From NCBI RefSeq assembly GCF_002252565.1, contig NZ_NPML01000011.1, forward strand, positions 124,001 to 188,000: DNA of 64,000 nucleotides, in the 5' to 3' direction. Shown in pieces: positions 3,435-53,352 of this stretch; the stretch's first letter is position 1, and each line of letters opens with the position of its first letter. This stretch comes from Petroclostridium xylanilyticum (GTDB lineage Bacteria > Bacillota > Clostridia > SK-Y3). Under the pieces are notes generated by a model. It saw nothing but the letters and a program-made list of their open reading frames with translations, did not search any database and had not been told where the DNA came from. A program made the position numbers and the translations under genes.

Positions 3435-3603
3435 TATGTTATTACCTCACTTATCATTCTAAACAAGATAATTATACTTAAAAATTAATATCAACCGCCA
3501 CACCGGGCACACCCGGCACAAATAATGATAAAAATATGCTTGATTGGTCAGGGCTTCGACAGCGGTTTTTGTTTTACTCCCCACTGTTCACTCCTCACTA
3601 TTT

Positions 3604-5115
3604 TCATATCAACGGACTATAATAAGTAGTACGCTCTCCCGTCTTGTTTAGTAACTTATTTATACAATTATACACTATTTCTATCCCTTTTTCAATTTGT
3701 TCAGGATAAACTGCCGCAAAGCTTATTCTTATATTTCTATCAGTATCAGCTGCATTACTCGTATAAAATATTTTTCCAGGAATGATCAAAACATCCCGTT
3801 TAGCACACCCATAATACAACTGAATCCCTGAAACACCTTCCGGTAAAGTCAGCCACAGGTTTAAACCACCATTAGGTTCATAGATGCTTGCACCCAAATC
3901 TCTTAATGCAGCAATTTCCCCAAGTATTTTTTTATATCTGTCTTTGTATATTTCCTTCATGTAATCAAGATGCCTTCCCCAAATTCCTTTTTGCAGATAT
4001 AGGTCAAATGCCCTCTGGATCAATCCCGAGGAAGATATATCGGTAGTATGTTTGGCTTGCAGGATGTCCTTAAAAACTTCTGAAGGTGCAATTAGAAAAC
4101 CTATACGTAAGCCGGGCATAAGAACCTTGGAGAAACTCTTAATATATAAAACTCTATCATATTTATCCAGTGACTTTAGCGTATGCGGCGTGCTGTCTTC
4201 TGTAAAGTTTAAGTCAGTCAAGAAATCATCCTCGATTATAAAAAAATTATTGCGATAAGCCAGGTCTAGCAAATATTGCTTCTTTTCCCTGGAGTAGCAG
4301 AAAGTTGTAGGATTCTGATAATTTGGCATGGTATAAATTAACTTAGGCCGATAGAGCTTAATATACTTTTCAAGCACACTTATATTTATGCCGTCGTGCT
4401 CTATAGGTACTCCCACAATCTTCGCACCTCTTGATTTAAATACTGCAATCGCACCCGTATAGGTTGGATTTTCTACTAAAACATAATCTCCGTGATTAAT
4501 TAAAGCTTTTGCAATAACATCTATTCCCTGCTGCGCTCCTGAAATAATTTGAATATCATCCTGGTGGGCTTTAATAGAATAGTTCATATTAAGAAATTGA
4601 GAGATAGAATGTCTCAAAGACTTATAACCGTTACTTTCATGATAACCGAATGCCTGTCCTTTATCGCGGTCTAAAACTTCAATTAGAACCTTCTTAAAAT
4701 CTTCAACAGGGAAAAGGTCCGGAGTAGGAGTTGCACTGGCAAAATTAATACTGTTTTCTGAGAGTGTAATTTGTCCCCTGCTCATTAGTTGAATGTCTTC
4801 TTCTTCAAAAAAGGTATCTTCTTTTACCTGAATTTCCATATCCGTCGGCTGTACTGCTATATATCTTACCGGAGCAACATAAACCCCACTTCCCGTTTTT
4901 GAATACACATAACCATTCTGTTCTAAGAGCTTATAGGCATTGACGACAGTAACTGTATTTACCTCCAGCTGTTCTGCCAGTTTTCTTATTGCAGGAAGCC
5001 TTGAACCTTTAGCTATATTCCCCTTAACAATTAATTTTTTTAAATGTTCAAATAGTTGAATATATAATGGAACACTATTACTCCTATCCAATTGTATCGA
5101 TGCAATTTCCCGCAT
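3604..5115 (-). CDS. pdxR: MocR-type regulator, probable PdxR activator of pdxST
   Basis: This 503-residue protein combines a GntR winged helix at about 1-80 (LPAIRKLAEQLEVNTVTVVNAYKLLEQNGYV) with a fold-type I aminotransferase domain at about 130-500. The likely PLP lysine is in SFSKVLMPGLRIGF. MocR proteins sense PLP with the aminotransferase fold. It is divergent from pdxS-pdxT, the classic arrangement for PdxR, so control of vitamin B6 synthesis is a strong inference. The ATG at 5115 is preceded by GGAGGAATAGAAT. The shared upstream region contains phased ATTGTAT boxes. A repeat arm of the TAGTGAGGAGTG family begins 3 bases after the stop codon. Confidence 0.9.
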   Translation of the reverse strand: MREIASIQLDRSNSVPLYIQLFEHLKKLIVKGNIAKGSRLPAIRKLAEQLEVNTVTVVNAYKLLEQNGYVYSKTGSGVYVAPVRYIAVQPTDMEIQVKEDTFFEEEDIQLMSRGQITLSENSINFASATPTPDLFPVEDFKKVLIEVLDRDKGQAFGYHESNGYKSLRHSISQFLNMNYSIKAHQDDIQIISGAQQGIDVIAKALINHGDYVLVENPTYTGAIAVFKSRGAKIVGVPIEHDGINISVLEKYIKLYRPKLIYTMPNYQNPTTFCYSREKKQYLLDLAYRNNFFIIEDDFLTDLNFTEDSTPHTLKSLDKYDRVLYIKSFSKVLMPGLRIGFLIAPSEVFKDILQAKHTTDISSSGLIQRAFDLYLQKGIWGRHLDYMKEIYKDRYKKILGEIAALRDLGASIYEPNGGLNLWLTLPEGVSGIQLYYGCAKRDVLIIPGKIFYTSNAADTDRNIRISFAAVYPEQIEKGIEIVYNCINKLLNKTGERTTYYSPLI

Positions 5116-5324: not shown

Positions 5325-5462
5325 ATTTATATAGTTCACAGTTAACAGTTCACAGTAGTAAACGATTTAATAGCTTTTACCGTGAACTGTGAACCGTGAA
5401 CTGTGAACTGTTAACTTATTGACTTTATCTGCCATGTAAAATCATTATCAGTAAATATATAG
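5325..5462 (+). repeat. Palindromic intergenic repeat, family A, copy 1
   Basis: This is one of three copies in the window of a sequence that opens TATATAGTTCACAG, continues CAGTAGTAAACGATTTAATAG and ends AATCATTATCAGTAAATATATAG. The left part is a large imperfect palindrome of GTTCACAG and CTGTGAAC units. It sits in the leader between the pdxR/pdxS control region and pdxS. It is itself flanked by the inverted sequences AATTAACCAACTTTAA (5301-5316) and TTAAAGTTGGTTAATT. Confidence 0.8.
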
Positions 5463-5569
5463 ATATTAAAGTTGGTTAATTTCATCGATAACTACATTAA
5501 TTTATTTTTAACTTTAATATTGGTTATCGATATAAACATAAATATTAATTTTAAGAAAGGATGTTGAAT

Positions 5570-9533: not shown

Positions 9534-9592
9534 AGTGGAGAGTATAATCCACTGAAAATGTTTATACTGCTCACTTTCCACTGTCCACTAAT
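9534..9592. repeat. Intergenic inverted repeat, family D (GGAGTGGAGAGT)
   Basis: GAGGAGTGGAGAGTATAA at 9530-9547 and CACTTTCCACTGTCCACT at about 9570-9589 form an imperfect inverted pair between two convergent genes. Arms of the same family lie at the 3' ends of pdxR, cysK, hflX, pepV and mtaD. Confidence 0.55.
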
Positions 9593-9642: not shown

Positions 9643-10758
9643 TCATAATTTAGCAAAGAAATTTCTAATAATGGGCTCCATTTTCCCTGATTCAATTAAA
9701 AATCCATCATGACCAAAGGGTGACTTTATTTCTTTATACTCCACATCAATATTATTCCTCTTCATATCCTGCACAAGCTCCTTCTGTTGACATACAGGGA
9801 AAAGAATATCAGAACTTATTCCTATTACCAATGCTTTTCCCTTAAAGGCCTTTAAAGCATTGTCTATGCCGCCAAAGTCTCTCCCCAATTCAAATAAATC
9901 CATTGCCCTGGTAAGATAAAGGTAGCTGTTGGCATCAAATCTTTGTACCAGTTTTTTTCCCTGGTAGTGGAGATAGCTCTCTACTTCAAATTCGTTATTA
10001 AAGCTTTCGAAGAGATTATTTCCTTCTCTGGCTCTTCTTCCAAACTTTTTTAACATAGATTCGTCACTCTGGTATGTAATCATACCAACCATTCTGGCCA
10101 GGGAAAGCCCTGATTCGGGCTGATTCTTGTTGTCATAGTAATCTCCATTATTCCAGTAAGGGTCAAGGGTGATTGCTTTTCTCTGTACCTCATTAAATGC
10201 AATAGCTTGTGGGTTCAGGCTCTTTGGTGCTGCCATAACAATAATACTGCCTACCATTTCAGGGTACTGTACTGCCCATTCCAGTGCCTGCATTCCCCCC
10301 ACAGAACCGCCCACTACTGATACCAGATGACTGACTCCCAGGTAGTCCAGTAACCTTTTTTGAACATTCACCATATCTTTTATAGTAATAATAGGGAAAT
10401 CCATCCCATACCTTTTTCCTGTTTTAGGATTTACAGAAGACGGACCGGTAGTACCCTGGCATCCCCCTAACACATTGGAACAAATAAAGCAATATTTGGA
10501 GGTATCAAACATCAAACCTTTTCCAACAAATTTTTCCCACCACCCCTCTTTAGGATCGTAAGGGTCATGCCGTGTAACATGGGAATCCCCTGTTAATGCA
10601 TGAGTTATTAATACAACATTCGTTTTATCCTGATTCATCTCACCAAATATCTCATAGGCAACAGTAATAGGGCCAAACTTTTTACCACATTCTAAAATAA
10701 AATCTTCATTTTCTGCAAAGGTATAAAACTGTTTATAGCTGCTTGCAGTATTACTCAC
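9643..10758 (-). CDS. metX: Homoserine O-acetyltransferase
   Basis: This alpha/beta-hydrolase activates homoserine with acetyl-CoA for methionine synthesis. It shows VLITHALTGDSHV (oxyanion region), the nucleophile elbow GGSVGGMQALEWA, the acid in ISSDILFPV and the catalytic His in SPFGHDGFLIE. Length is about 371 residues, normal for MetX. A GTG at 10758 has AGGGGG 9 bases upstream; an ATG at 10776 is the alternative, with a weak site. It follows metY in the same direction with a short gap, so both are controlled by the SAM-I riboswitch. Confidence 0.94.
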   Translation of the reverse strand: MSNTASSYKQFYTFAENEDFILECGKKFGPITVAYEIFGEMNQDKTNVVLITHALTGDSHVTRHDPYDPKEGWWEKFVGKGLMFDTSKYCFICSNVLGGCQGTTGPSSVNPKTGKRYGMDFPIITIKDMVNVQKRLLDYLGVSHLVSVVGGSVGGMQALEWAVQYPEMVGSIIVMAAPKSLNPQAIAFNEVQRKAITLDPYWNNGDYYDNKNQPESGLSLARMVGMITYQSDESMLKKFGRRAREGNNLFESFNNEFEVESYLHYQGKKLVQRFDANSYLYLTRAMDLFELGRDFGGIDNALKAFKGKALVIGISSDILFPVCQQKELVQDMKRNNIDVEYKEIKSPFGHDGFLIESGKMEPIIRNFFAKL

Positions 10759-10784
10759 TACTAGTTTCCCCCTCATGCCTGAAA

Positions 10785-12074
<1,290 letters not shown>

Positions 12075-12124: not shown

Positions 12125-12149
12125 CTTATTATTTTTCTCTATTAATTCC

Positions 12150-12248
12150 TCTTATCTCTCAGGTAAAAACCTGCTGGATTTAGCACCACTGCGATTTACG
12201 CCGGTTGCCGGGCTTCACTGGGCCAGTCCCTCCGCCACTCTTGATAAG
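12150..12248 (-). promoter_or_regulatory. SAM-I (S-box) riboswitch
   Basis: The minus strand starts CTTATCAAGAGTGGCGGAGG and continues through GACTGGCCC, GAAGCCCGGCAACC, GGTGCTAAATCC and AGCAG to GAGAGATAAG. These are the conserved P1, kink-turn, pseudoknot and J3/4 elements of the S-box. P1 pairs CTTATC with GATAAG. It precedes metY-metX, which are standard targets. High SAM should favour the downstream terminator. Confidence 0.96.
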
Positions 12249-12308
12249 ATTTAACCTTTATTAAATTAATATGATTTTAACATTGACTTTAACATTTGTC
12301 AATAAAAA

Positions 12309-21054: not shown

Positions 21055-21125
21055 TCTATGGTTCGTAGTTGATAAATTTTATGGTTTTTAACACGGACCA
21101 AGAACTACAAACTATGAACTATTTA
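21055..21125. repeat. Intergenic repeat, family C, copy 2
   Basis: TATGGTTCGTAGTTG and CAAACTATGAACTAT are the arms of an imperfect palindrome in the 241-base gap between the LCP gene and rsfS. The repeat resembles those at 8300-8392 and 55199-55265. Confidence 0.6.
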
Positions 21126-21192: not shown

Positions 21193-22530
21193 TTATCGTA
21201 TTTCGCTTATATCATTTCCAACAATGACGGTTACATCAATTTTGCTGTCTTTATCCAAGTCCTTATCTGTCTCAATTTCCCCGAGTGCTTTTGAAATTTC
21301 TTTTGCATATCCTTTGGTTGTTCTATCCACAGCCTTTGTTTTACTGTAATGCACACCTCCAAAGTTACCTGTCCTTACAACATTAAAACCTTTTTGTTTT
21401 AAATCTTCAGCAACTTTTGCAGCTGCCCCATCAGTATTAGAGCCGTTTAATACTTCAACCTTAATGAACCTGTTTTTCCAGCTTGGTTTATATTCTGCCT
21501 CTTTTTTTACGGACTGTTCTTTCTCTTCCTTACTTCCCTCTTGTTGGTTATTATTACCTAAATCTTCTTTTTCAATACCTTCATTTATTTCTTCTGATGG
21601 AGTAAAATAATTCTTTATTAGTTCGTCAGTTTTTTCCTTGTCATGAAGAAAGTAGGAAATCCCTCCAATATAGCCGCTATCTCCCGGCAGCATCATCATA
21701 TTGATTTTACTTTTATCCAATTGAAGAGCATCTCCTATATATTTTCCGATTTCCTGGACTTCAAAATTAGTTTTCACATTTTTGATTACAATCGCCACCA
21801 ACTTAGGGATCTTAAAAATATTTTTTAAGCTGAGGGCTTTATCTATTACTGCGTTAATAAACTCCTGCTGTGCCTTCATCCGTCCAAGGTCTCCATCCGG
21901 ATAACCTGTCCCATCGGAATTCTTTCTAAACCGTACAAACATCTCAGCCTGTTTTCCGTTAAGCACCTGTTCCCCTTTATTTAGTTTAATATATAACCCT
22001 TGGTAGGGGTCTTCATAGTACATATTAATTGGAACATTTACTTTTACTCCACCTATTTCATCTATAAGCGTCCTGAATCCTTTAAGGTTAACTAAAACAT
22101 ATTTATCCACGTCTACATTTAACAAATTTTTTATTGCCTCAAAAAGCGCCTGTTCTTTTCCGAAGGCATAAGCCGAATTTATTTTTTTATCGCTTCTTGT
22201 GGTTTCAATCTTTGTATCTCTGGGTATCTGCAGCATATTTACTCTTTTTGTCTTCAAATCATACTGTGCCAGTATGATTACGTCTGTCCTATATCCATCC
22301 GCATCAACGCCTAAAAGAAGCACATTTAACAGAGTTTGTCCTTCTTCAGTTTTTTCCGTTATCTTCTTAGCTTTATCCGAACTTGTTCCAGCGCCGAATT
22401 CCATCCCGGAGCCATCATCATGACCGGCAATCCGGTAAGACAAGGCTACCCCGCCAGCCACAACCCCTGCTACTAGTGAAAATGTAATTAATATTAACAA
22501 TATCAGTCGGATAAATACTTTAAAATTCAT
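21193..22530 (-). CDS. LytR-CpsA-Psr (LCP) family cell-wall glycopolymer ligase with LytR_C domain
   Basis: LCP proteins attach teichoic acids or other glycopolymers to peptidoglycan. The 445-residue protein has a single N-terminal membrane helix (about 5-30). Its LCP domain (about 60-260) contains LLLGVDADGYRTDVIILAQYD, LQIPRDTKI, NSAYAFG, EMFVRFRKNSDG and DLGRMKAQQEFI. After an acidic linker comes a LytR_C domain (about 325-445, VEVLNGSNTDGAAAKVAEDL). ATG 22530 has AGGAG 7 bases upstream; the frame is open further but would start inside yqeK-proximal sequence. It lies 22 bases after yqeK. Confidence 0.93.
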   Translation of the reverse strand: MNFKVFIRLILLILITFSLVAGVVAGGVALSYRIAGHDDGSGMEFGAGTSSDKAKKITEKTEEGQTLLNVLLLGVDADGYRTDVIILAQYDLKTKRVNMLQIPRDTKIETTRSDKKINSAYAFGKEQALFEAIKNLLNVDVDKYVLVNLKGFRTLIDEIGGVKVNVPINMYYEDPYQGLYIKLNKGEQVLNGKQAEMFVRFRKNSDGTGYPDGDLGRMKAQQEFINAVIDKALSLKNIFKIPKLVAIVIKNVKTNFEVQEIGKYIGDALQLDKSKINMMMLPGDSGYIGGISYFLHDKEKTDELIKNYFTPSEEINEGIEKEDLGNNNQQEGSKEEKEQSVKKEAEYKPSWKNRFIKVEVLNGSNTDGAAAKVAEDLKQKGFNVVRTGNFGGVHYSKTKAVDRTTKGYAKEISKALGEIETDKDLDKDSKIDVTVIVGNDISEIR

Positions 22531-26276: not shown

Positions 26277-26390
26277 TATATAGTTCACAGTTCTCAGTTC
26301 ACAGTAGTAAACGATTTAATAGCTTTTACTGTGAACCGTGAACTTATTGACTTTATCTGCTATGTAAAATCATTATCAGTAAATATATAG
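26277..26390 (+). repeat. Palindromic intergenic repeat, family A, copy 2
   Basis: The sequence runs from TATATAGTTCACAG to AATCATTATCAGTAAATATATAG and shares CAGTAGTAAACGATTTAATAG with the copies at 5325 and 30594. It is shorter than copy 1 because one GAACTGTGAACTGTTAAC unit is missing. It fills the gap between yigZ and the CoA-binding gene. Confidence 0.8.
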
Positions 26391-26422
26391 CTAAATTATA
26401 TTCCAATCACTGAGTTTCAAGG

Positions 26423-27094
26423 CTAAGAGCCTGTAGAAGATAACAATTTTCCTTTTTCATCAATAGCAATATATTTTGTCGCTACTTTACTTATATTTAC
26501 CCTTCCGTTAGTAATATCAATCATATTTTGGATAAACTGCTCCGATTGTTGAGCATTCACGAGAACAAATAATGTCACATCCTCTTGATATATGGTACCA
26601 TCAATAATATGTCCGGAATTTACTATTTCATTCTGGATTTTACCTAACAAAGTATAATCTGTTTTTATTTTAATATTATCACAAAGCCTCATGTATATAA
26701 TTCCCGCAGCAACCAAACCCTCTTTAGCACTTCTTCCATAGGCTCTGACAAGTCCTCCTGCTCCTAAAAGCGTACCTCCAAAATATCGCGTAACTACAAC
26801 CACTACATCCTGCAGTTGTTCTTTTTTTATTACCTCAAGCGTAGGAATACCTGCCGTACCTGCCGGTTCTCCGTCATCACTATACCTTTGGATATTGTTA
26901 TTGCCAATTACATATGCATAAACATTATGAGCAGCATCCCAGTACTTTGATTTTAGCTCATTAATAAAATCTACAGCCTCCTGCTCTGTAGTCACAGGTT
27001 TTACACTAGCAATAAAACGGGATTTCTTTTCTATTATTTCTGCCTGTCCATATTGATATACCGTTTTATACTCACACTGATGTTTATTGTCCAC
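26423..27094 (-). CDS. yigZ: YigZ/IMPACT family protein (UPF0029)
   Basis: This 223-residue protein has an N-terminal IMPACT domain with EIIEKKSRFIASVKPV, AAHNVYAYVIGNN, RYSDDGEPAGTAGIP and VVVTRYFGGTLLGAGGLVRAYG, and a C-terminal DUF1949 domain. Eukaryotic IMPACT regulates GCN2; the bacterial role is not settled. The start is GTG at 27094, three bases after the hflX stop. Its Shine-Dalgarno GAGGAG and the GTG both lie inside a family D repeat arm. Confidence 0.93.
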   Translation of the reverse strand: MDNKHQCEYKTVYQYGQAEIIEKKSRFIASVKPVTTEQEAVDFINELKSKYWDAAHNVYAYVIGNNNIQRYSDDGEPAGTAGIPTLEVIKKEQLQDVVVVVTRYFGGTLLGAGGLVRAYGRSAKEGLVAAGIIYMRLCDNIKIKTDYTLLGKIQNEIVNSGHIIDGTIYQEDVTLFVLVNAQQSEQFIQNMIDITNGRVNISKVATKYIAIDEKGKLLSSTGS

Positions 27095-27097
27095 TAT

Positions 27098-28384
27098 CTA
27101 CTCCTCACTCCCCACTATGTATTCTTTTACCCTCCCAAACATTACTTCATCCACCAGTACATTCATTACAGTGCCCTCCTGTGTATATTCTTCCCTAAGA
27201 ACATCACATTTTTCATGAATCTGGGACACTATGCTTCCCACTGAATAAGGAACACATATTTTAACCTTTATCTTTTTTCCCGGAACAATATCGTCCATCA
27301 ACTCCAGTAAATCATTTATGCCTTTTCCGGTTCGGGCAGATACTTCCACGCTGCCTTTAACCATCTGCCGATCCTGAGGCAAATGAATATCATCCTGCTT
27401 TAAATCTATTTTATTGTATACCATTATAATAGGCTTGCTCGCAGCACCTAATTCTTTTAATATATTGTTAACCACCAGTATATGCTGTTCTGCCACATCA
27501 CTGCTGGAATCTACTACGTGTAGCAATACATCTGCCAATACTGCTTCTTCTAAAGTTGATTTAAAAGCCTCTATCAGACGGTGAGGAAGTTTTCTTATGA
27601 AACCTACAGTATCCACCAATAAAACTTTACGGTTATCTGAAAGTTCTATGCTCCTGACAGTAGGATCCAGTGTAGCAAACAGCTTGTCCTCTGCCAATAC
27701 ATCAGAATGGGCAAGGGCATTTAATAAAGATGATTTTCCTGCATTCGTATATCCAACTAAAGCAACAACAGGTATTCCTTCTTTCTTTCGCCTGCTTCTC
27801 AAAAGTTCCCTGTGTTTTTTAATGTCTTTTAATTCATCTTCAAGGTAGCTGATTCGTCTTTTAATATGTCTCCGGTCAGTTTCCAGCTTGGTTTCACCAG
27901 GACCACGGGTGCCTATTCCCCCTCCAAGTCTTGAAAGAGCAGATCCAACCCCAACTAATCTTGGCAGCATATATTTTAGTTGTGCCAGTTCTACCTGAAT
28001 TTTTCCTTCTTTCGTAAGAGCCCGGGCTGCAAAGATATCCAGGATAAGTGTACTTCGGTCAATAACCTTGATACCTGTAATGTCTTCGAGATTGCGTACC
28101 TGTGACCCGGTCAGCTCATCGTCAAAAATAATGAGGTTAGCTCCCAAACTTTCGCAAACGGCTTTAATCTCCTTTACCTTGCCTTCACCAACATAGGTTG
28201 ATGTTTCTATAAATGTCCTGTTCTGTAAAATGGCAGTCAATACCTCCGCCCCAGCCGTATCAGCCAGACGTGCAAGTTCTGCCAACGACTCTTCGGTGGT
28301 ATCTTCCAAACTATTCCGATTTCCTGTATGTACTCCTACTAAAACCGCCCGCTCTTTTTTTTCTTGAGTTTCTATATATTCCAT
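27098..28384 (-). CDS. hflX: Ribosome-associated GTPase HflX
   Basis: HflX splits stalled or hibernating ribosomes and is linked to heat and antibiotic stress. The 428-residue protein has an N-terminal domain with GEGKVKEIKAVCESL and IIFDDELTGSQVRNLED. The glycine-rich GIGTRGPGETKLETDRR linker follows, then the G domain with G1 ALVGYTNAGKSSLLNAL, G3 LVDTVGFIRKLPH and G4 MVYNKIDL. GGAGGTACT precedes ATG 28384. The last residues (VGSEE) and the stop codon are read from a family D repeat. Confidence 0.97.
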   Translation of the reverse strand: MEYIETQEKKERAVLVGVHTGNRNSLEDTTEESLAELARLADTAGAEVLTAILQNRTFIETSTYVGEGKVKEIKAVCESLGANLIIFDDELTGSQVRNLEDITGIKVIDRSTLILDIFAARALTKEGKIQVELAQLKYMLPRLVGVGSALSRLGGGIGTRGPGETKLETDRRHIKRRISYLEDELKDIKKHRELLRSRRKKEGIPVVALVGYTNAGKSSLLNALAHSDVLAEDKLFATLDPTVRSIELSDNRKVLLVDTVGFIRKLPHRLIEAFKSTLEEAVLADVLLHVVDSSSDVAEQHILVVNNILKELGAASKPIIMVYNKIDLKQDDIHLPQDRQMVKGSVEVSARTGKGINDLLELMDDIVPGKKIKVKICVPYSVGSIVSQIHEKCDVLREEYTQEGTVMNVLVDEVMFGRVKEYIVGSEE

Positions 28385-30585: not shown

Positions 30586-30593
30586 GCTACCTT

Positions 30594-30717
30594 CTATATA
30601 TTTACTGATAATGATTTTACATGGCAGATAAAGTAAATAAGTTCACAGTTCACGGTTCACAGTAAAAGCTATTAAATCGTTTACTACTGTGAACTGAGAA
30701 CTGTTAACTGTGAACTA
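30594..30717 (-). repeat. Palindromic intergenic repeat, family A, copy 3 (inverted)
   Basis: This is the reverse complement of copies 1 and 2: CTATATATTTACTGATAATG at the left, then CTATTAAATCGTTTACTACTG and GTTAACTGTGAACTA at the right. It directly abuts the yyaL relic and is followed within 14 bases by a family B repeat. Confidence 0.8.
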
Positions 30718-30730
30718 AGACACAGACAAA

Positions 30731-30799
30731 GGGACAGGTGCGTTATCTGCTAAGCTTTTTCTACAACATATAGACATAACAGACGATGTACCTGTCCCC
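30731..30799. repeat. Intergenic repeat, family B (GGGACAGG...CCTGTCCC), copy 1
   Basis: The terminal inverted repeat GGGACAGGTGCGTTATCTG / AGACGATGTACCTGTCCC encloses CTAAGCTTTTTCTACAA. Other copies are at 41293-41361, 45928-46000 and a right half at 43609-43643. Palindromes of this type often depend on REP-associated Y1 transposases; none is in the window. Confidence 0.8.
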
Positions 30800-41216: not shown

Positions 41217-41292
41217 AAAAATCACCTCCTTCCCTCCTTCAATCATTGTATGAGGAAGGCTTTTCTTATGTTACATGTCAACACACAGACAA

Positions 41293-41361
41293 GGGACAGG
41301 TACGTTGTCTGCTAAGCTTTTTCTACAATACATAGATATAACAGACGATGTACCTGTCCCC
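41293..41361. repeat. Intergenic repeat, family B, copy 2
   Basis: GGGACAGGTACGTTGTCTG at the left pairs with AGACGATGTACCTGTCCC at the right around CTAAGCTTTTTCTACAAT. It is the best-preserved copy and lies just downstream of the Nudix gene's stop codon, where it could act as a transcript-end hairpin. Confidence 0.85.
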
Positions 41362-42019: not shown

Positions 42020-43417
42020 ATGAATTTTGATCATTATGTAGACCAGATGTTAGAAGATATTATAAAATCCACACAGGAAATGGTACGCATCCCCAGTGTA
42101 AAAAAAGAACCTTTGCCTGGAAAGCCATTTGGAGAAGATGTTAACAGGGCTTTGGAATACATATTGGAACTAGGCAAATCAATGGGTTTCAGGACTAAAA
42201 ATGTAGATGGCTATATCGGATATATTGAGTTTGGAGAAGGTGAAGAGTTAATTGGAATATTAGCGCACCTGGATGTTGTTCCGGCAGGAAGCGACTGGAC
42301 CTACCCTCCCTTTGAGGCAGAAATCCATGATGGAAAAATATACGGCAGGGGGTCACTTGATGATAAAGGTCCTGCAATAGCAGCGTTATATGCAATGAAA
42401 GCGATAAAGGATACTGGTATAGAGTTAAATAAGAGAGTGCGTTTAATACTTGGATTGGATGAAGAAAGTGGCTGGGAGTGTATCAGACGCTATAAGGAAA
42501 CTGAAGAAGCTCCTGACGTTGCTTTTACTCCTGACGCAGATTACCCGGTTATTCATGCTGAAAAAGGAATCGTCAACTATAAATTTTTCCAACAATATAA
42601 TAGTGAAAATGCTTTAATAAAAATCATTACTATTAAAGGCGGAAACAGACCCAATATGGTCCCGGATTCCTGCGATGCGGTTATTGAAGTACAACCGGAA
42701 CGATTTAATAATGTCTGTGATAACCTGAAACAACTCATTGAAAATAAAGGATTTAAAATAGAAATAAATGCTGACAATGACAGAATTGCGTTAAAAGCCC
42801 ATGGCAAATCAGCGCATGGAAGTGTACCTCATAAAGGTATTAATGCAATATCGCAACTGATGGTAGTCCTATATGAATGTATGGGGAATTATAATACTGA
42901 AAATCCTTTTATTCAATTCTATCATGAGTGTATCGGTCTTGAAACCGATGGAGCATCCATCGGTTGTGCTATGGAAGATGATGTATCGGGAAGGCTAACC
43001 TTTAATATAGGATTGATAAGTGCTGATTCAAATTATGCCGAAGCGGTTGCAAATATACGTTACCCAGTAACCTTTAAAGAAGAAGATATATATGCAAAGA
43101 TTCAAGATATGATACAAAAATATGGTGTTAAAGTTGAAAAGCTGGAGCATCAAAGTCCTCTTTATGTGCCAAAAGGCCATCCTTTGGTGCAGAAACTAAT
43201 GAAAGTATACAGGGATGTCACAGGAGATGACAGAGAACCGGTAGCCATAGGCGGAGGTACTTATGCCCGTGCCTTTGAGAATGCCGTTGCTTTTGGAGCG
43301 GCATTTCCGGGCGAACCTGAACTTGCTCATGAGAAAGATGAGTATATTGCTATTGATTCTCTAATTAAAAATACTAAGATTTTTGCAAGAGCAATTTATG
43401 AATTAGCTAAAGAGTGA
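42020..43417 (+). CDS. pepV: PepV-like M20 dipeptidase
   Basis: This zinc dipeptidase of 465 residues acts in the cytoplasm on imported dipeptides. It shows GILAHLDVVPAG with the metal His and Asp, YGRGSLDDKGPAIAALYAMKA with the second Asp, the catalytic Glu pair in GLDEESGWECI, TPDADYPVIHAEKG and a C-terminal GGGTYARAFENAVAFGAAFPGE. AAAGGAGG precedes ATG 42020. The stop codon TGA opens a family D repeat arm. A 25-codon fragment matching residues about 377-400 recurs at 45864, evidence for a second, lost copy. Confidence 0.93.
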   Translation: MNFDHYVDQMLEDIIKSTQEMVRIPSVKKEPLPGKPFGEDVNRALEYILELGKSMGFRTKNVDGYIGYIEFGEGEELIGILAHLDVVPAGSDWTYPPFEAEIHDGKIYGRGSLDDKGPAIAALYAMKAIKDTGIELNKRVRLILGLDEESGWECIRRYKETEEAPDVAFTPDADYPVIHAEKGIVNYKFFQQYNSENALIKIITIKGGNRPNMVPDSCDAVIEVQPERFNNVCDNLKQLIENKGFKIEINADNDRIALKAHGKSAHGSVPHKGINAISQLMVVLYECMGNYNTENPFIQFYHECIGLETDGASIGCAMEDDVSGRLTFNIGLISADSNYAEAVANIRYPVTFKEEDIYAKIQDMIQKYGVKVEKLEHQSPLYVPKGHPLVQKLMKVYRDVTGDDREPVAIGGGTYARAFENAVAFGAAFPGEPELAHEKDEYIAIDSLIKNTKIFARAIYELAKE

Positions 43418-43749
43418 GGAGTGGGGAGTGAGTAACTCTAAAGACAGTGGGACAGTTAGAAATCACTGAGAAAATAATGAATAATCGTTCGGCCGAGACA
43501 TGGGGACACACCACTTGTTAGTGAAAAACTTGCAAATAGCGCTTTTCGACGTGAAATGTCCCCAAGTCTCACCCTCTTTCGCCGCACAACCCGGCTTTTT
43601 CAGCAGTTCAATACATAGATATAACAGCCAATGTACCTGTCCCTTGTCCTGTGCTTTGTCCTGTGTTCTCCTGCCTTGTGTTTTAGCACACAAGCTTTGC
43701 TCGGTGCATCGAATCGTCCCTTTTGATGCTTGACTCTCTTTAAATAAGT
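43418..43749. other. Repeat-rich intergenic region with a broken family B copy
   Basis: No gene is supported here. It begins with the family D arm GGAGTGGGGAGTGAG at the pepV stop. GGGACAG at 43449 and ATACATAGATATAACAG-to-CCTGTCCC at 43611-43643 look like the two ends of a family B copy separated by about 150 bases. The intervening DNA has TGGGGACA (43500-43507) and TGTCCCCA (43557-43564), another inverted pair. Alternating CCTTGTCCTGTG units follow. Confidence 0.55.
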
Positions 43750-45863: not shown

Positions 45864-45938
45864 CTTCTTTATGTACCAAAAGATCATCCTTTGGTTCAGA
45901 AGCTGATGAAAATATATGCATATAAAAGGACAGGAGAC
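45864..45938 (+). pseudogene. Short fragment of a second pepV-like dipeptidase gene
   Basis: The plus strand reads LLYVPKDHPLVQKLMKIYAYKRTGD. PepV at 42020 has PLYVPKGHPLVQKLMKVYRDVTGD at its C-terminal part, with strong nucleotide identity as well. Nothing else of the gene is seen on either side. The fragment's right end merges with the left end of a family B repeat, whose GGACAGG overlaps the ACAGGAGA of the gene. A duplicate or paralogue was probably cut at that point. Confidence 0.75.
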
Positions 45939-46117
45939 AGTTACATTGTCTGCTAAGCTTTTTCTACAATACATAAATATAACAGACAATGTACCTGTCC
46001 GAGACTACTGAAAAAGCCACTTTTAAAAAAAGCCAACGGAGTTAAGCGGGTTTCAGGGTTCAATTTTCAGAAAAAAGTGACTTTGTCAGTGGTTTCGTAC
46101 CTGTCCCCCTGTCCTGT
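45928..46117. repeat. Intergenic repeat, family B, copy 4, split by a MITE-like insertion
   Basis: GGACAGGAGACAGTTACATTG opens the copy, less one base in the shared core TGTCTGCTAAGCTTTTTC, and GACAATGTACCTGTCC closes the first part at 46000. A 96-base element follows, then GTACCTGTCC is repeated and continues CCCTGTCCTG. The 10-base repeat shows that the right arm was duplicated on insertion. Confidence 0.8.
46001..46096. mobile_element. MITE-like element, 96 bp, with 10-bp direct repeat
   Basis: The ends GAGACTACTGAAAAAGCCAC and, on the other strand, GAAACCACTGACAAAGTCAC match at 16 of 20 positions and both continue into CTTTT. It is flanked by direct repeats GTACCTGTCC at 45991-46000 and 46097-46106. 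It has no coding capacity. The TIR style resembles ends of IS1182-type elements, but the parent is not in the window. Confidence 0.75.
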
Positions 46118-50390: not shown

Positions 50391-50428
50391 AGTTTTTAAT
50401 TCTAAATAAAATGGGAGGTTTGGACATT

Positions 50429-50614
50429 ATGCGGTTAGCATTGATGGGGGATTTGCATTATCCGCATATCGAGCGAGGGAATCAAAAATTATTTGAAACA
50501 CGAGAGAGATTTTACGAGGGGTATTTGAAAAAGTTTTTAGAAATAGATGCAGATTGGTATATTTCCCTCGAAAATTTGACACATAAGTTGTGCTACTCTG
50601 AAAACTACTACTAG
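50429..50614 (+). pseudogene. Truncated calcineurin-like metallophosphoesterase
   Basis: Only about 61 residues remain. MRLALMGDLHYPHIE carries the first metal-binding Asp and His of the family, and DADWYISLENLTH matches the next block (usually LGDLTH), with Gly-Asp changed to Glu-Asn. The frame then runs into HKLCYSENYY and a stop, where an intact enzyme would have 200 or more residues. GGGAGGTTTGGACATT precedes ATG 50429, so it may still be translated. It would have ended the ugp operon. The loss lies near family D repeats at 50708. Confidence 0.75.
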
Positions 50615-50707: not shown

Positions 50708-50785
50708 AGAGTAAGGAGTGGAAAGTGGGGAGTAAGCAGTATGGAAATTATTCATTCATCACTTCCCACTGTCCACTCCCCACTA
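50708..50785. repeat. Intergenic inverted repeat, family D, full palindrome
   Basis: GAGTAAGGAGTGGAAAGTGG at 50709-50728 and CACTTCCCACTGTCCACTCC at 50759-50778 form a long imperfect palindrome. Its right arm contains the stop codon of mtaD (TAG, 50785-50783, minus strand). It lies between convergent ugp and mtaD transcripts and can fold in RNA from both. Confidence 0.75.
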
Positions 50786-52084
50786 TTCAAAAATTCTCTT
50801 ACTTATCTTGTTTATATTATAAATAACCTCTTCATCATCAACGGTCTTGAATTCACCCTTTTCCATGAGAATTCTGCCATCAACCAAAACTGTTTCCACA
50901 TCCGCAGCCTGCGCCGAATAAGCCAGGTTAGCAATTACATTGTGTTGAGGGTAAAAATGAGGCTTATTCAAATTTACAATGGTTAAATCCGCTTTCATCC
51001 CCGGCTTTATAATACCTACCTCATGCTTTATACCTAATGCCATCGCTCCATGAACTGTAGCCATTTTTAATGCATCATAAGCCTTTACAAGCGTAGGTTC
51101 CTTTTCTACCCCTTTACTTACAAGCGCAGCCAAATGAATTTCTTCAAACATGTTCAGGTTGTTATTGCTGGATGCACCATCAGTACCTAACGCAATATTG
51201 ATACCTTTAGCCAACATATTACGCACAGGAGTAATTCCACTTCCAAGCTTGAGGTTGCTTCCCGGATTGTATACCACGCTCACATCGTTTTCCTTGAGGA
51301 TATCCATATCCTCCTCCGAAACATGGACGCAATGGGCTGCAATGGTATGGGCTTTAAATATGCCGAGATCGTACAGATGGCGGACAGGGGTTTTTCCGTA
51401 TTTCTCCAAGCATTCCTGATTTTCTTTCAGAGTCTCTGAAATATGTATATGAATACCGGTCCCTAATTTTTGAGCCAGCTCCGCAACATCCTCCAGGTAA
51501 TCAGGAACGCAGGTATATACCGAATGAGGCCCCAAGAAAATCCTGATTCTTCCGTTAGATTCTCCGTCCCAGTCTTTAAAGAGCTGTTCATTTTCCAGTA
51601 AACGCCTGTCTTCTGTGGGGTTGAAATCAGGTTCAAAACACTGCAAACCTCTGGACAGATTTGCACGAATACCTGTCCTGCTTACTGCTTTTACAACTTC
51701 ATCCATGAAAAAGTACATATCGGCAAAGCAAGTAATCCCGGATCTTAGCATTTCCATAATACCAAGCATGGAAGCCCAATAGACGTCTTCTGCAGCAAAC
51801 TTGTCTTCAATAGGAAATATTTTTTCAAAAAGCCATTCCTGTAAGGGTAAATCATCGGCATAGCTTCGCAGTAACACCATTGGCGTATGTGTATGGGCAT
51901 TTATCAACCCCGGTAATACCACCCGGTCTCTACCCTCAATAATTACCTGCGGCAAAAAATCCTCAGGCAGGGTTTCCCCCACATAGGTAATTCTATCATC
52001 TACAATGGCAATATATCCATTATGGACAACTTTATTTTCATCTTCCATGGTAACAATCGTTGCATTTTTTATTAATGTATTCAT
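50783..52084 (-). CDS. mtaD: 5-methylthioadenosine/S-adenosylhomocysteine deaminase
   Basis: This amidohydrolase of 433 residues converts SAH (and methylthioadenosine) to the inosyl form, releasing ammonia. Metal ligands are in PGLINAHTHTPMVLLR, GTGIHIHISETLKEN and IAAHCVHVSEEDMDIL, and the aspartate is in NIALGTDGASSNNNLNMFEE. The outer residues follow the MtaD/SsnA group. ATG 52084 has GGAGG upstream. It is the third gene of pnp-ahcY-mtaD, 17 bases after ahcY. This supports SAH recycling through S-inosylhomocysteine. Confidence 0.93.
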   Translation of the reverse strand: MNTLIKNATIVTMEDENKVVHNGYIAIVDDRITYVGETLPEDFLPQVIIEGRDRVVLPGLINAHTHTPMVLLRSYADDLPLQEWLFEKIFPIEDKFAAEDVYWASMLGIMEMLRSGITCFADMYFFMDEVVKAVSRTGIRANLSRGLQCFEPDFNPTEDRRLLENEQLFKDWDGESNGRIRIFLGPHSVYTCVPDYLEDVAELAQKLGTGIHIHISETLKENQECLEKYGKTPVRHLYDLGIFKAHTIAAHCVHVSEEDMDILKENDVSVVYNPGSNLKLGSGITPVRNMLAKGINIALGTDGASSNNNLNMFEEIHLAALVSKGVEKEPTLVKAYDALKMATVHGAMALGIKHEVGIIKPGMKADLTIVNLNKPHFYPQHNVIANLAYSAQAADVETVLVDGRILMEKGEFKTVDDEEVIYNINKISKRIFE

Positions 52085-52101
52085 AGTAACCTCCGCAATC
52101 A

Positions 52102-53352
52102 CTATTCTCCCCAACTTGAAAGATACTTTCTCTGTGCTTCGGTTAAAGTATCTATGCTGATGCCCATGCTTTGCAGCTTCAATTGAGCAACATATTGATC
52201 TATTTCATCTGGAACTTCATAAACCTTATTCTCCATATTTTTATGGTTCTGAGCAATATGCTTTGCAGACAGCGCTTGCAGAGCAAAACTCATATCCATA
52301 ATTTCAGCGGGATGCCCGTCTCCGGCAGCAAGGTTTACCAGCCGTCCTTCTGCAAGAAGATGAATCCACCTGCCATCCGCCATTTTATAACCCATGATAT
52401 TCTTTCTCATTTCTTTTTTCTCAACCGCCATTGCTTCCAACTCGGGAATACAAATTTCAACATCAAAATGCCCGGCATTGGCAAGAATAGCTCCGTTCTT
52501 CATTACTTTGTAATGCTCATCGTATATAACCCTGTTGCAACCGGTTACGGTAATAAAGAAATCTCCTATCTTTGCAGCTTCATTCATAGGCATTACGCTA
52601 AAGCCATCCATTACCGCTTCAATTGCCTTGATTGGATCTACTTCACACACAATTACATTTGCGCCCAGACCTTTGGCTCTCATGGCACAACCTTTACCAC
52701 ACCAGCCATATCCTATAATTACTACATTTTTACCGCTTACAATCAGGTTTGTAGTTCTCATAACGCCATCCCACACCGATTGTCCTGTGCCATATCTATT
52801 ATCAAACAAATATTTGCAATATGCATCATTTACGGAAATCATAGGGAATTTTAACAAACCTTCCTTTGCCCTGGCTTTGAGACGGATTACCCCGGTAGTA
52901 GTTTCTTCACATCCGCCGAATACATCTGGCAGTAATTCCTGCCTTTCCCCGTGTAAAAGGTGGACGAGGTCACCGCCGTCGTCAATTACGATGTTAGGTC
53001 TGATATCCAATGCATAATTCAAATGCTCAAAATACTCCTTCTCGGTAGCGCCATACCAAGCATATACCTTTAGGCCATCTGCAACAAGGGCTGCTGCTAC
53101 ATCGTCCTGTGTGGAAAGCGGATTGCTTCCTGTTACAGAAACCTCAGCGCCTCCCGCAGCCAACACCTTTGCCAGGTATGCCGTTTTTGCCTCCAGGTGT
53201 ACACATACAACAGCTCTTAACCCTTTAAAATACTGGTTCTTTTTAAAATCCTCTTCAAGATACCTTAAAAGGGGCATATTCTTCTTTACCCATTCAATTT
53301 TCTGTCTTCCACTATTGGCAAGATGAATATCTCTTATTACACTTTCTCTCAT
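52102..53352 (-). CDS. ahcY: Adenosylhomocysteinase, possibly S-inosylhomocysteine hydrolase
   Basis: This NAD-dependent hydrolase of 416 residues yields homocysteine. It has [27 protein letters not shown], the catalytic Lys and Asp in [14 protein letters not shown], the NAD loop [14 protein letters not shown] and AGHFDVEI. It is the shorter archaeal/Thermotoga form. In the base-binding helix it reads HLEAKTAYL, where classical enzymes have HMTxxTA with Gln/Glu at the Lys position. With mtaD next to it, the real substrate may be S-inosylhomocysteine; that is inference. Confidence 0.92.

Follow-up and report, generated by a model that had tools for sequence, protein, structure and literature searches.

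Why does a tandem repeat sit on the stop codon of an mtaD-like gene, and does its position reflect the stop codon, an RNA hairpin or a more general property of gene edges? The question is raised by positions 50708-50785 of the window, the whole 64,000-nucleotide stretch of Petroclostridium xylanilyticum DNA analysed here, where two inward-pointing arrays of 7-nt units form an inverted pair of period-7 arms. The gene encodes a member of the N-ethylammeline chlorohydrolase / MTA-SAH deaminase group of amidohydrolases, and its TAG stop is the TAG of TAGTGGGGAGTGGACAGTGGG. The initial annotation placed arms of this type (family D) at or within a few bases of the stop codons of five genes in the window, with the stop itself inside the arm in mtaD, hflX and pepV. 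The placement holds for mtaD, for pepV, whose TGA stop (43415-43417) sits within AGTGAGG, and for pdxR, but not for the other two genes (Table 1). The gene called cysK is metX, and its arm lies well beyond the stop, while the names pdxR, hflX and pepV were correct. In hflX the supposed arm is coding sequence: its IVGSEE stands against IVGSENEE, IVESGE and IIGDEG at the equivalent place in relatives, and it continues toward the region where the next gene, yigZ, starts. As conserved coding sequence, this look-alike should be left out of the count. Beside the mtaD foldback, a short ORF on the forward strand (50411-50614) with a MRLALMGDLHYPH-like beginning is, judged by eye, probably the remnant of a phosphoesterase gene.

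Table 1. Heptad arrays, a look-alike and the mtaD-like gene in the window (window coordinates).
Feature	Position	Strand	Context and basis
D arm, AGTGGGG AGTGGAC AGTGGGA AGT	50761-50784	-	Its T plus AG form the mtaD stop; the mtaD ortholog ends close to the same residue
Partner D arm, AGTAAGG AGTGGAA AGTGGGG AGTAAGC AGT	50710-50740	+	Folds with the arm at 50761-50784, z -4.1
mtaD-like amidohydrolase gene	50783-52102	-	TAG stop (50783-50785) inside the arm; NCBIfam and orthologs
D array AGTGAGGAGTGGGGAGT	43413-43429	+	Overlaps the TGA stop of pepV (42020-43417)
D array, composite type D1 (TATGAAAATAGTGAGG...)	3576-3599	-	4 nt past the TGA stop of pdxR (3604-5115)
D arm	9566-9589	-	53 nt past the stop of metX (9643-10776); weak partner at 9534-9543 (+)
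Look-alike, not an inserted element	27093-27116	-	In the conserved coding end of hflX, adjoining the yigZ start region
Other heptad array (ACTACAAACTATGAACT)	21104-21120	-	73 nt from the end of gene 21193-22530
AGTTCAC-type heptad foldback	5333-5416		Separate dispersed family; no stop enrichment by the simple test

A search with the exact 20-mer, allowing up to three mismatches, gave three matches in the window and none in 100 shuffles. In the whole genome CACTCCCCACT occurs 104 times and its reversed control not once. The commonest D unit is AGTGGGG, others being AGTGGAC and AGTGGGT; the number and type of units vary from array to array, and mixed arrays exist. Among tandem periods, period 7 is dominant with 84 loci, against 28 at lag 6 and 1 to 6 at lags 5 and 8 to 11. 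Units at the stop edge fit the pattern A-R-T-K-R-R-N, though the phase had itself been set by the first three of these letters. Elements of type D1 are longer and dispersed; they have TARTATGAAAAT as an end and what looks like its inverted counterpart. Of the other hallmarks of a MITE, neither a target duplication nor a source transposase was seen. No Rfam family matched at the arrays. Foldbacks of the AGTTCAC type with a conserved core, AGTAAACGATTTAATAGCTTTTAC, occur as near-identical copies in both orientations at 5333-5465, 26277-26393 and 30593-30717, and a separate GGGACAGGTAC family with the tail ACAGACRATGTACCTGTCC is found at 30726-30797, 41288-41359, 43609-43646 and 45929-46000.

The genome-wide measurement of stop distances that the initial annotation proposed was carried out on 1.26 Mb of the 3.86 Mb genome, made up of unbiased tiles (1.18 Mb) and the window, with genes called by a purpose-written hexamer-based caller. 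Arms between -25 and +15 nt of a stop codon were counted as near-stop, and the start edge was set at 35 nt. Many thresholds were picked after part of the data had been seen; those of the stop-edge test were fixed on this genome before being applied to the replication genome, a related one taken to be Petroclostridium sp. X23 (G003), in which D arms were found by pattern and not by position. In the own genome 24 sense arms and one antisense arm lie near stops, while uniform placement predicts 5.5 and never exceeded 13 in 200 runs. The same simple test gave no such excess for the AGTTCAC family (3 against 5.1 expected) or the ACATGGGGACGGTTC family (4 against 2.8). Because most tile genes share one strand, orientation was tested against far arms, and near and far arms differ (Fisher p = 0.0018). 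In X23 the near-stop D arms are 38 sense and 0 antisense, and the far arms 20 sense and 44 antisense (Fisher 2e-13). A foldback that fills its spacer must put an arm near the stop, and for this reason the simple per-arm null overstates the effect; it is kept here, with residual-spacer and single-arm nulls replacing it for inference. A stop-side distance of 13 or less was found in 21 of 38 blocks of the own genome (8.2 expected) and in 22 of 40 co-directional blocks of X23 (15.3 expected). For spacers holding a single arm the figures are 18/32 against 4.8 and 9/19 against 3.0, respectively, values reached in none of 2000 simulations in either genome. The stop-edge excess is thus real but smaller than the simple null implies, and the near-stop sense bias holds in both genomes, counted as two genera. 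The original judgement that the placement is too regular for random intergenic insertion is borne out, also under the stricter single-arm null.

The stop codon is, however, only half of the placement rule. Heptad arrays begin beside either of the genes that flank an intergenic gap, and they invariably point inward. In X23 spacers between co-directional genes, the stop edge has 22 sense and 0 antisense arms, the start edge 1 sense and 15 antisense, and the middle of the spacer 12 and 13. At the start edge the antisense arms end 15-27 nt short of the start codon, immediately upstream of the position of the ribosome-binding site. The own genome has few arms there (3 antisense, 0 sense), and the start-edge rule rests mainly on X23. 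The same polarity is seen in AT-rich period-7 arrays (AATTGAG, AATGAAT, AGTTCGG), where the arrays at stops number 15 sense and 1 antisense and those at starts 2 sense and 5 antisense. When its AGT phase sets the orientation, the AGTTCAC family obeys the rule as well although it has no stop enrichment (5:0 at stops and 0:6 at starts, where three cases are undecided by purine content). Since AT-rich heptads follow the rule, neither G-quadruplexes nor any one repeat family explains the placement; G-quadruplexes were rejected as its reason because heptads unable to form one are placed alike. Between divergent genes arrays are scarce, with 3 of 85 loci in a class that holds 17% of intergenic bases. 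In one X23 locus (L282, ~1456-1517) a foldback spans the entire gap between two convergent stops, with an arm 1-5 nt from each stop. The proposal of target choice at gene ends therefore survives in a wider form, covering either edge of the spacer; as arms also lie antisense just upstream of ribosome-binding sites, the stop codon itself is not the feature that is recognised.

A general role as RNA 3' hairpins, the other function suggested at the outset, is not supported. Counting both genomes, 42 of 70 near-stop arms (60%) have no partner arm, and in the 28 arm pairs the match within a pair is 0.69, identical to the match against arms of other elements. Gene ends with arrays fold with a median z of -1.70, compared with -1.35 for other ends, no clear excess, and in many cases the array separates genes of a single operon (for instance rpsJ and rplW). 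The conserved unit is not a hairpin. If the inverted arms were the stems of intrinsic transcription terminators, which we consider very unlikely, the strong hairpins at mtaD, pheT and cdsA (z -4.1 to -5.3) and the T-rich sequence following the pheT arms in three genomes would be accounted for, but not the unpartnered arms, the arrays inside operons, the missing T run in most of the hairpins shown or the lack of enrichment at convergent gene pairs (3/44). Overall the arrays do not show the terminator signature of a stable hairpin and T run closing a transcription unit; a few loci, e.g. pheT, may qualify, and at individual loci such as pheT or rny the general picture may not hold.

The effect of the arrays on the genes themselves was assessed by comparison with orthologs. 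C-terminal lengths agree within two residues with own-genome orthologs in 80% of X23 array genes and 87% of controls, and rpsD, rplW, rpsJ, flgK, greA, rny, cdsA, pheT, spoIIIAB and larB all end where their orthologs end. The median X23 spacer with an array measures 147 nt and the orthologous own-genome spacers without one 53 nt, a difference of about 90 nt. With C-termini nearly unchanged and array-free spacers shorter, the arrays lengthen the spacer between an intact stop and the ribosome-binding site. These comparisons bear on whether the pattern could be an artefact of stop-bearing inserts, in which random hits at gene ends supply a stop, truncate the gene and so mimic arrays that begin at stops. 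Type D1 fits such a process, as it carries TARTATGAAAATAG and its own TAR or TGA acts as the stop in most near-stop copies, but C-termini are hardly truncated or extended beyond the control level and the antisense peak at the start edge is left unexplained, so that we regard it as highly improbable. Truncation is largely refuted by the ortholog comparison, and may hold for a few genes such as those at X23 L288 and L322, whose products are seven residues shorter. For annotators, the placement rule is a warning that repeats may supply the last codons and stops of genes in such genomes. All three reading frames are closed within 30 nt at 32% of array ends and 9% of controls. A function as three-frame stop was nevertheless rejected, because AGTGGGG units contain no stop codon and such a function would not account for the start edge.

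Arrays also recur at the same gene ends in relatives. Of 13 X23 orthologs of own array genes, 4 have an array at the corresponding stop, compared with 5 of 312 gene ends in the X23 tiles (p = 1.8e-4), and the units may differ. At the rplW stop the own genome has AGTGGGT where X23 has AATTAAT; for the gene at X23 locus L338 the units are AGTTCAC in the own genome and AGTGGGG in X23; larB has AGTGGGG in both, AGTTAAC/AGTTCA in G001 and no array in G004. In place of the AGTGGGG units of the window, the mtaD gene of a relative (L094, locus L278 of G004) has an AATGAAT array directly past its stop. In rny, an AGTGGGT array is kept in the own genome, G001, G002 and X23. Recurrence far above background would also fit a function, and one possible though doubtful reading is a functional mRNA element, in which an ART-phased array past the stop is predicted to bind a protein or to shape termination, mRNA decay or downstream translation, with selection keeping the array beside the gene although its units change in sequence. 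Such an element would agree with the sharp positional peak at the stop, the arrays, in some cases of different units, at matching gene ends of other genera (rplW, flgK, larB), the conserved rny array and the closure of three frames. On the other hand, one RNA role cannot cover both these arrays and the antisense arrays before starts, unit sequences vary widely, arrays are confined to a few per cent of genes, and there is no link to high codon adaptation, which is slightly lower in array genes. This last result also led us to reject high expression or transcription-linked hot spots as an explanation.

Copying within the genome does occur, as indicated by six X23 loci with unrelated flanks that share the unit order AGTGGGG AGTGAGG AGTGGAT AGTGGGG AG, or nearly so. 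The finding weighs against an origin in place, by which heptad tracts would arise through replication slippage and grow until they reach a coding or ribosome-binding edge. Heptads have been suggested to suit polymerase slippage (discussed in PMC4692102), and varying unit numbers and types and mixed arrays are as slippage would leave them; but six loci could share an identical order of four units only through copying, tracts growing in place would acquire no fixed polarity at two edges, and array-free orthologous stops (rpsD, rplW, mtaD) hold no proto-unit, the exceptions being hflX, larB and a gene at C7:162652, in which the coding end resembles GTGGGGAG. We therefore consider slippage unlikely. 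No clean empty site with closely matching flanks was found among the relatives compared, which belong to other genera. Across the class the distribution is patchy, exact AATGAAT triple heptads being present in only 13 of 291 genomes; outside the family a few of these start at a stop and others do not.

The explanation that we tentatively favour, and judge almost as likely to be right as wrong, is that heptad-phased inserts form a broader class, of which the D repeats represent one variant in sequence, and that members of this class enter or grow in short spacers and spread as copies. Such an insert would have the form 5'-ART(N4), repeated about three to five times and often arranged as an inverted pair facing inward. 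It would enter, or grow in, the short spacer separating a stop codon from the ribosome-binding site that follows, without disturbing the edge of either gene, and foldback or partial copies of it would spread through the genome. The polarity would then follow from the inward-pointing ends of the insert, adjacency to the stop or ribosome-binding site from the shortness of the original spacers, in which only that space was free, and lone arms would be partial or decayed copies. Small heptad-ended inserts would thus survive at spacer edges. We infer that the arrays arise mainly by insertion and copying and less by growth in place, and that selection mainly removes copies from anywhere else. Against heptad-ended inserts, no transposase or target duplication was identified for the heptad elements, the arms of one element share no unit order, unlike ordinary terminal inverted repeats, and insertion into short spacers alone does not explain lone stop arms that face hundreds of free bases.

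Heptamer repeats are over-represented in several bacterial lineages, and there is no agreed origin or function for them. The heptanucleotide STRR repeats of cyanobacteria are, like the arrays described here, short tandem heptamers in intergenic DNA (cited in PMC4692102). REP and REPIN elements, which are associated with RAYT transposases, are likewise small, dispersed, intergenic and sometimes palindromic, but they lack the period-7 arrays and two-edge polarity seen here; conversely, with 60% lone arms and pairing no better than chance, the present arms do not show the conserved imperfect palindrome of REP/REPIN. None of the 12 Y1 transposase genes in this genome lies within about 1.5 kb of a heptad array, so that no association with a RAYT source was seen; this absence is weak evidence, as only about two D hits are expected there by chance. 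The closest published case is that of the G-rich GGGAATC and GGGGA(C/T)T heptamers of Xanthomonas and Nostoc (Rehm et al. 2015, PMC4692102), which are dispersed and mostly intergenic, lie in sense within 50 bp of a stop, including overlap with it, or on the non-coding strand upstream of ORFs, occasionally form inverted pairs, are scarce between divergent genes and share their gene context among related species (PMC4692102). Both systems have exact 7-nt tandem units with G tracts, placed in sense near stops and antisense near starts. The present units (AGTGGGG, AGTGGAC, AGTGGGT and the AT-rich AATTGAG and AATGAAT) differ from GGGNATC and GGGGAYT, the host belongs to another phylum, the placement is resolved to a few nucleotides, and AT-rich heptads, which the G-quadruplex explanation does not cover, follow the rule. 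The present case is a variant in Clostridia that adds exact placement and units that are not G-rich. The TAACTGA heptamers of Beggiatoaceae, cyanobacteria and Bacteroidetes, which vary between strains by indels in 7-nt steps (MacGregor 2015, PMC4679880), are also intergenic 7-nt direct repeats at gene edges; they differ in having a single unit sequence and, in the best-studied genome, in lying mostly forward and just upstream of starts (PMC4679880). The arrays of Clostridia, Xanthomonas, Nostoc and Beggiatoaceae might come from one general, sequence-flexible process that places 7-nt-phased repeats at gene edges and conserves beat and polarity and not letters, a rather improbable generalisation. 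The rule itself, with the same beat and polarity at both edges in several unit families including AT-rich ones, argues against G-quadruplexes and 3' hairpins as the general reason for such repeats, and whatever mechanism is proposed has to recognise gene edges in either direction and be independent of unit sequence.

Other features were noted in the same DNA. A group II intron lies on the reverse strand at 510-2339 of the window, where three Rfam parts matched around an ORF (596-2002), with a tRNA gene near it (2790-2862). A SAM riboswitch (12149-12250, reverse strand) is found upstream of, and on the same strand as, the gene at 10785-12071 and metX. In the tiles of the own genome, GTAGAACCGAAACATACGATGTATTGAAAT is exactly repeated many times (each 12-mer counted 48) and looks like a CRISPR direct repeat.
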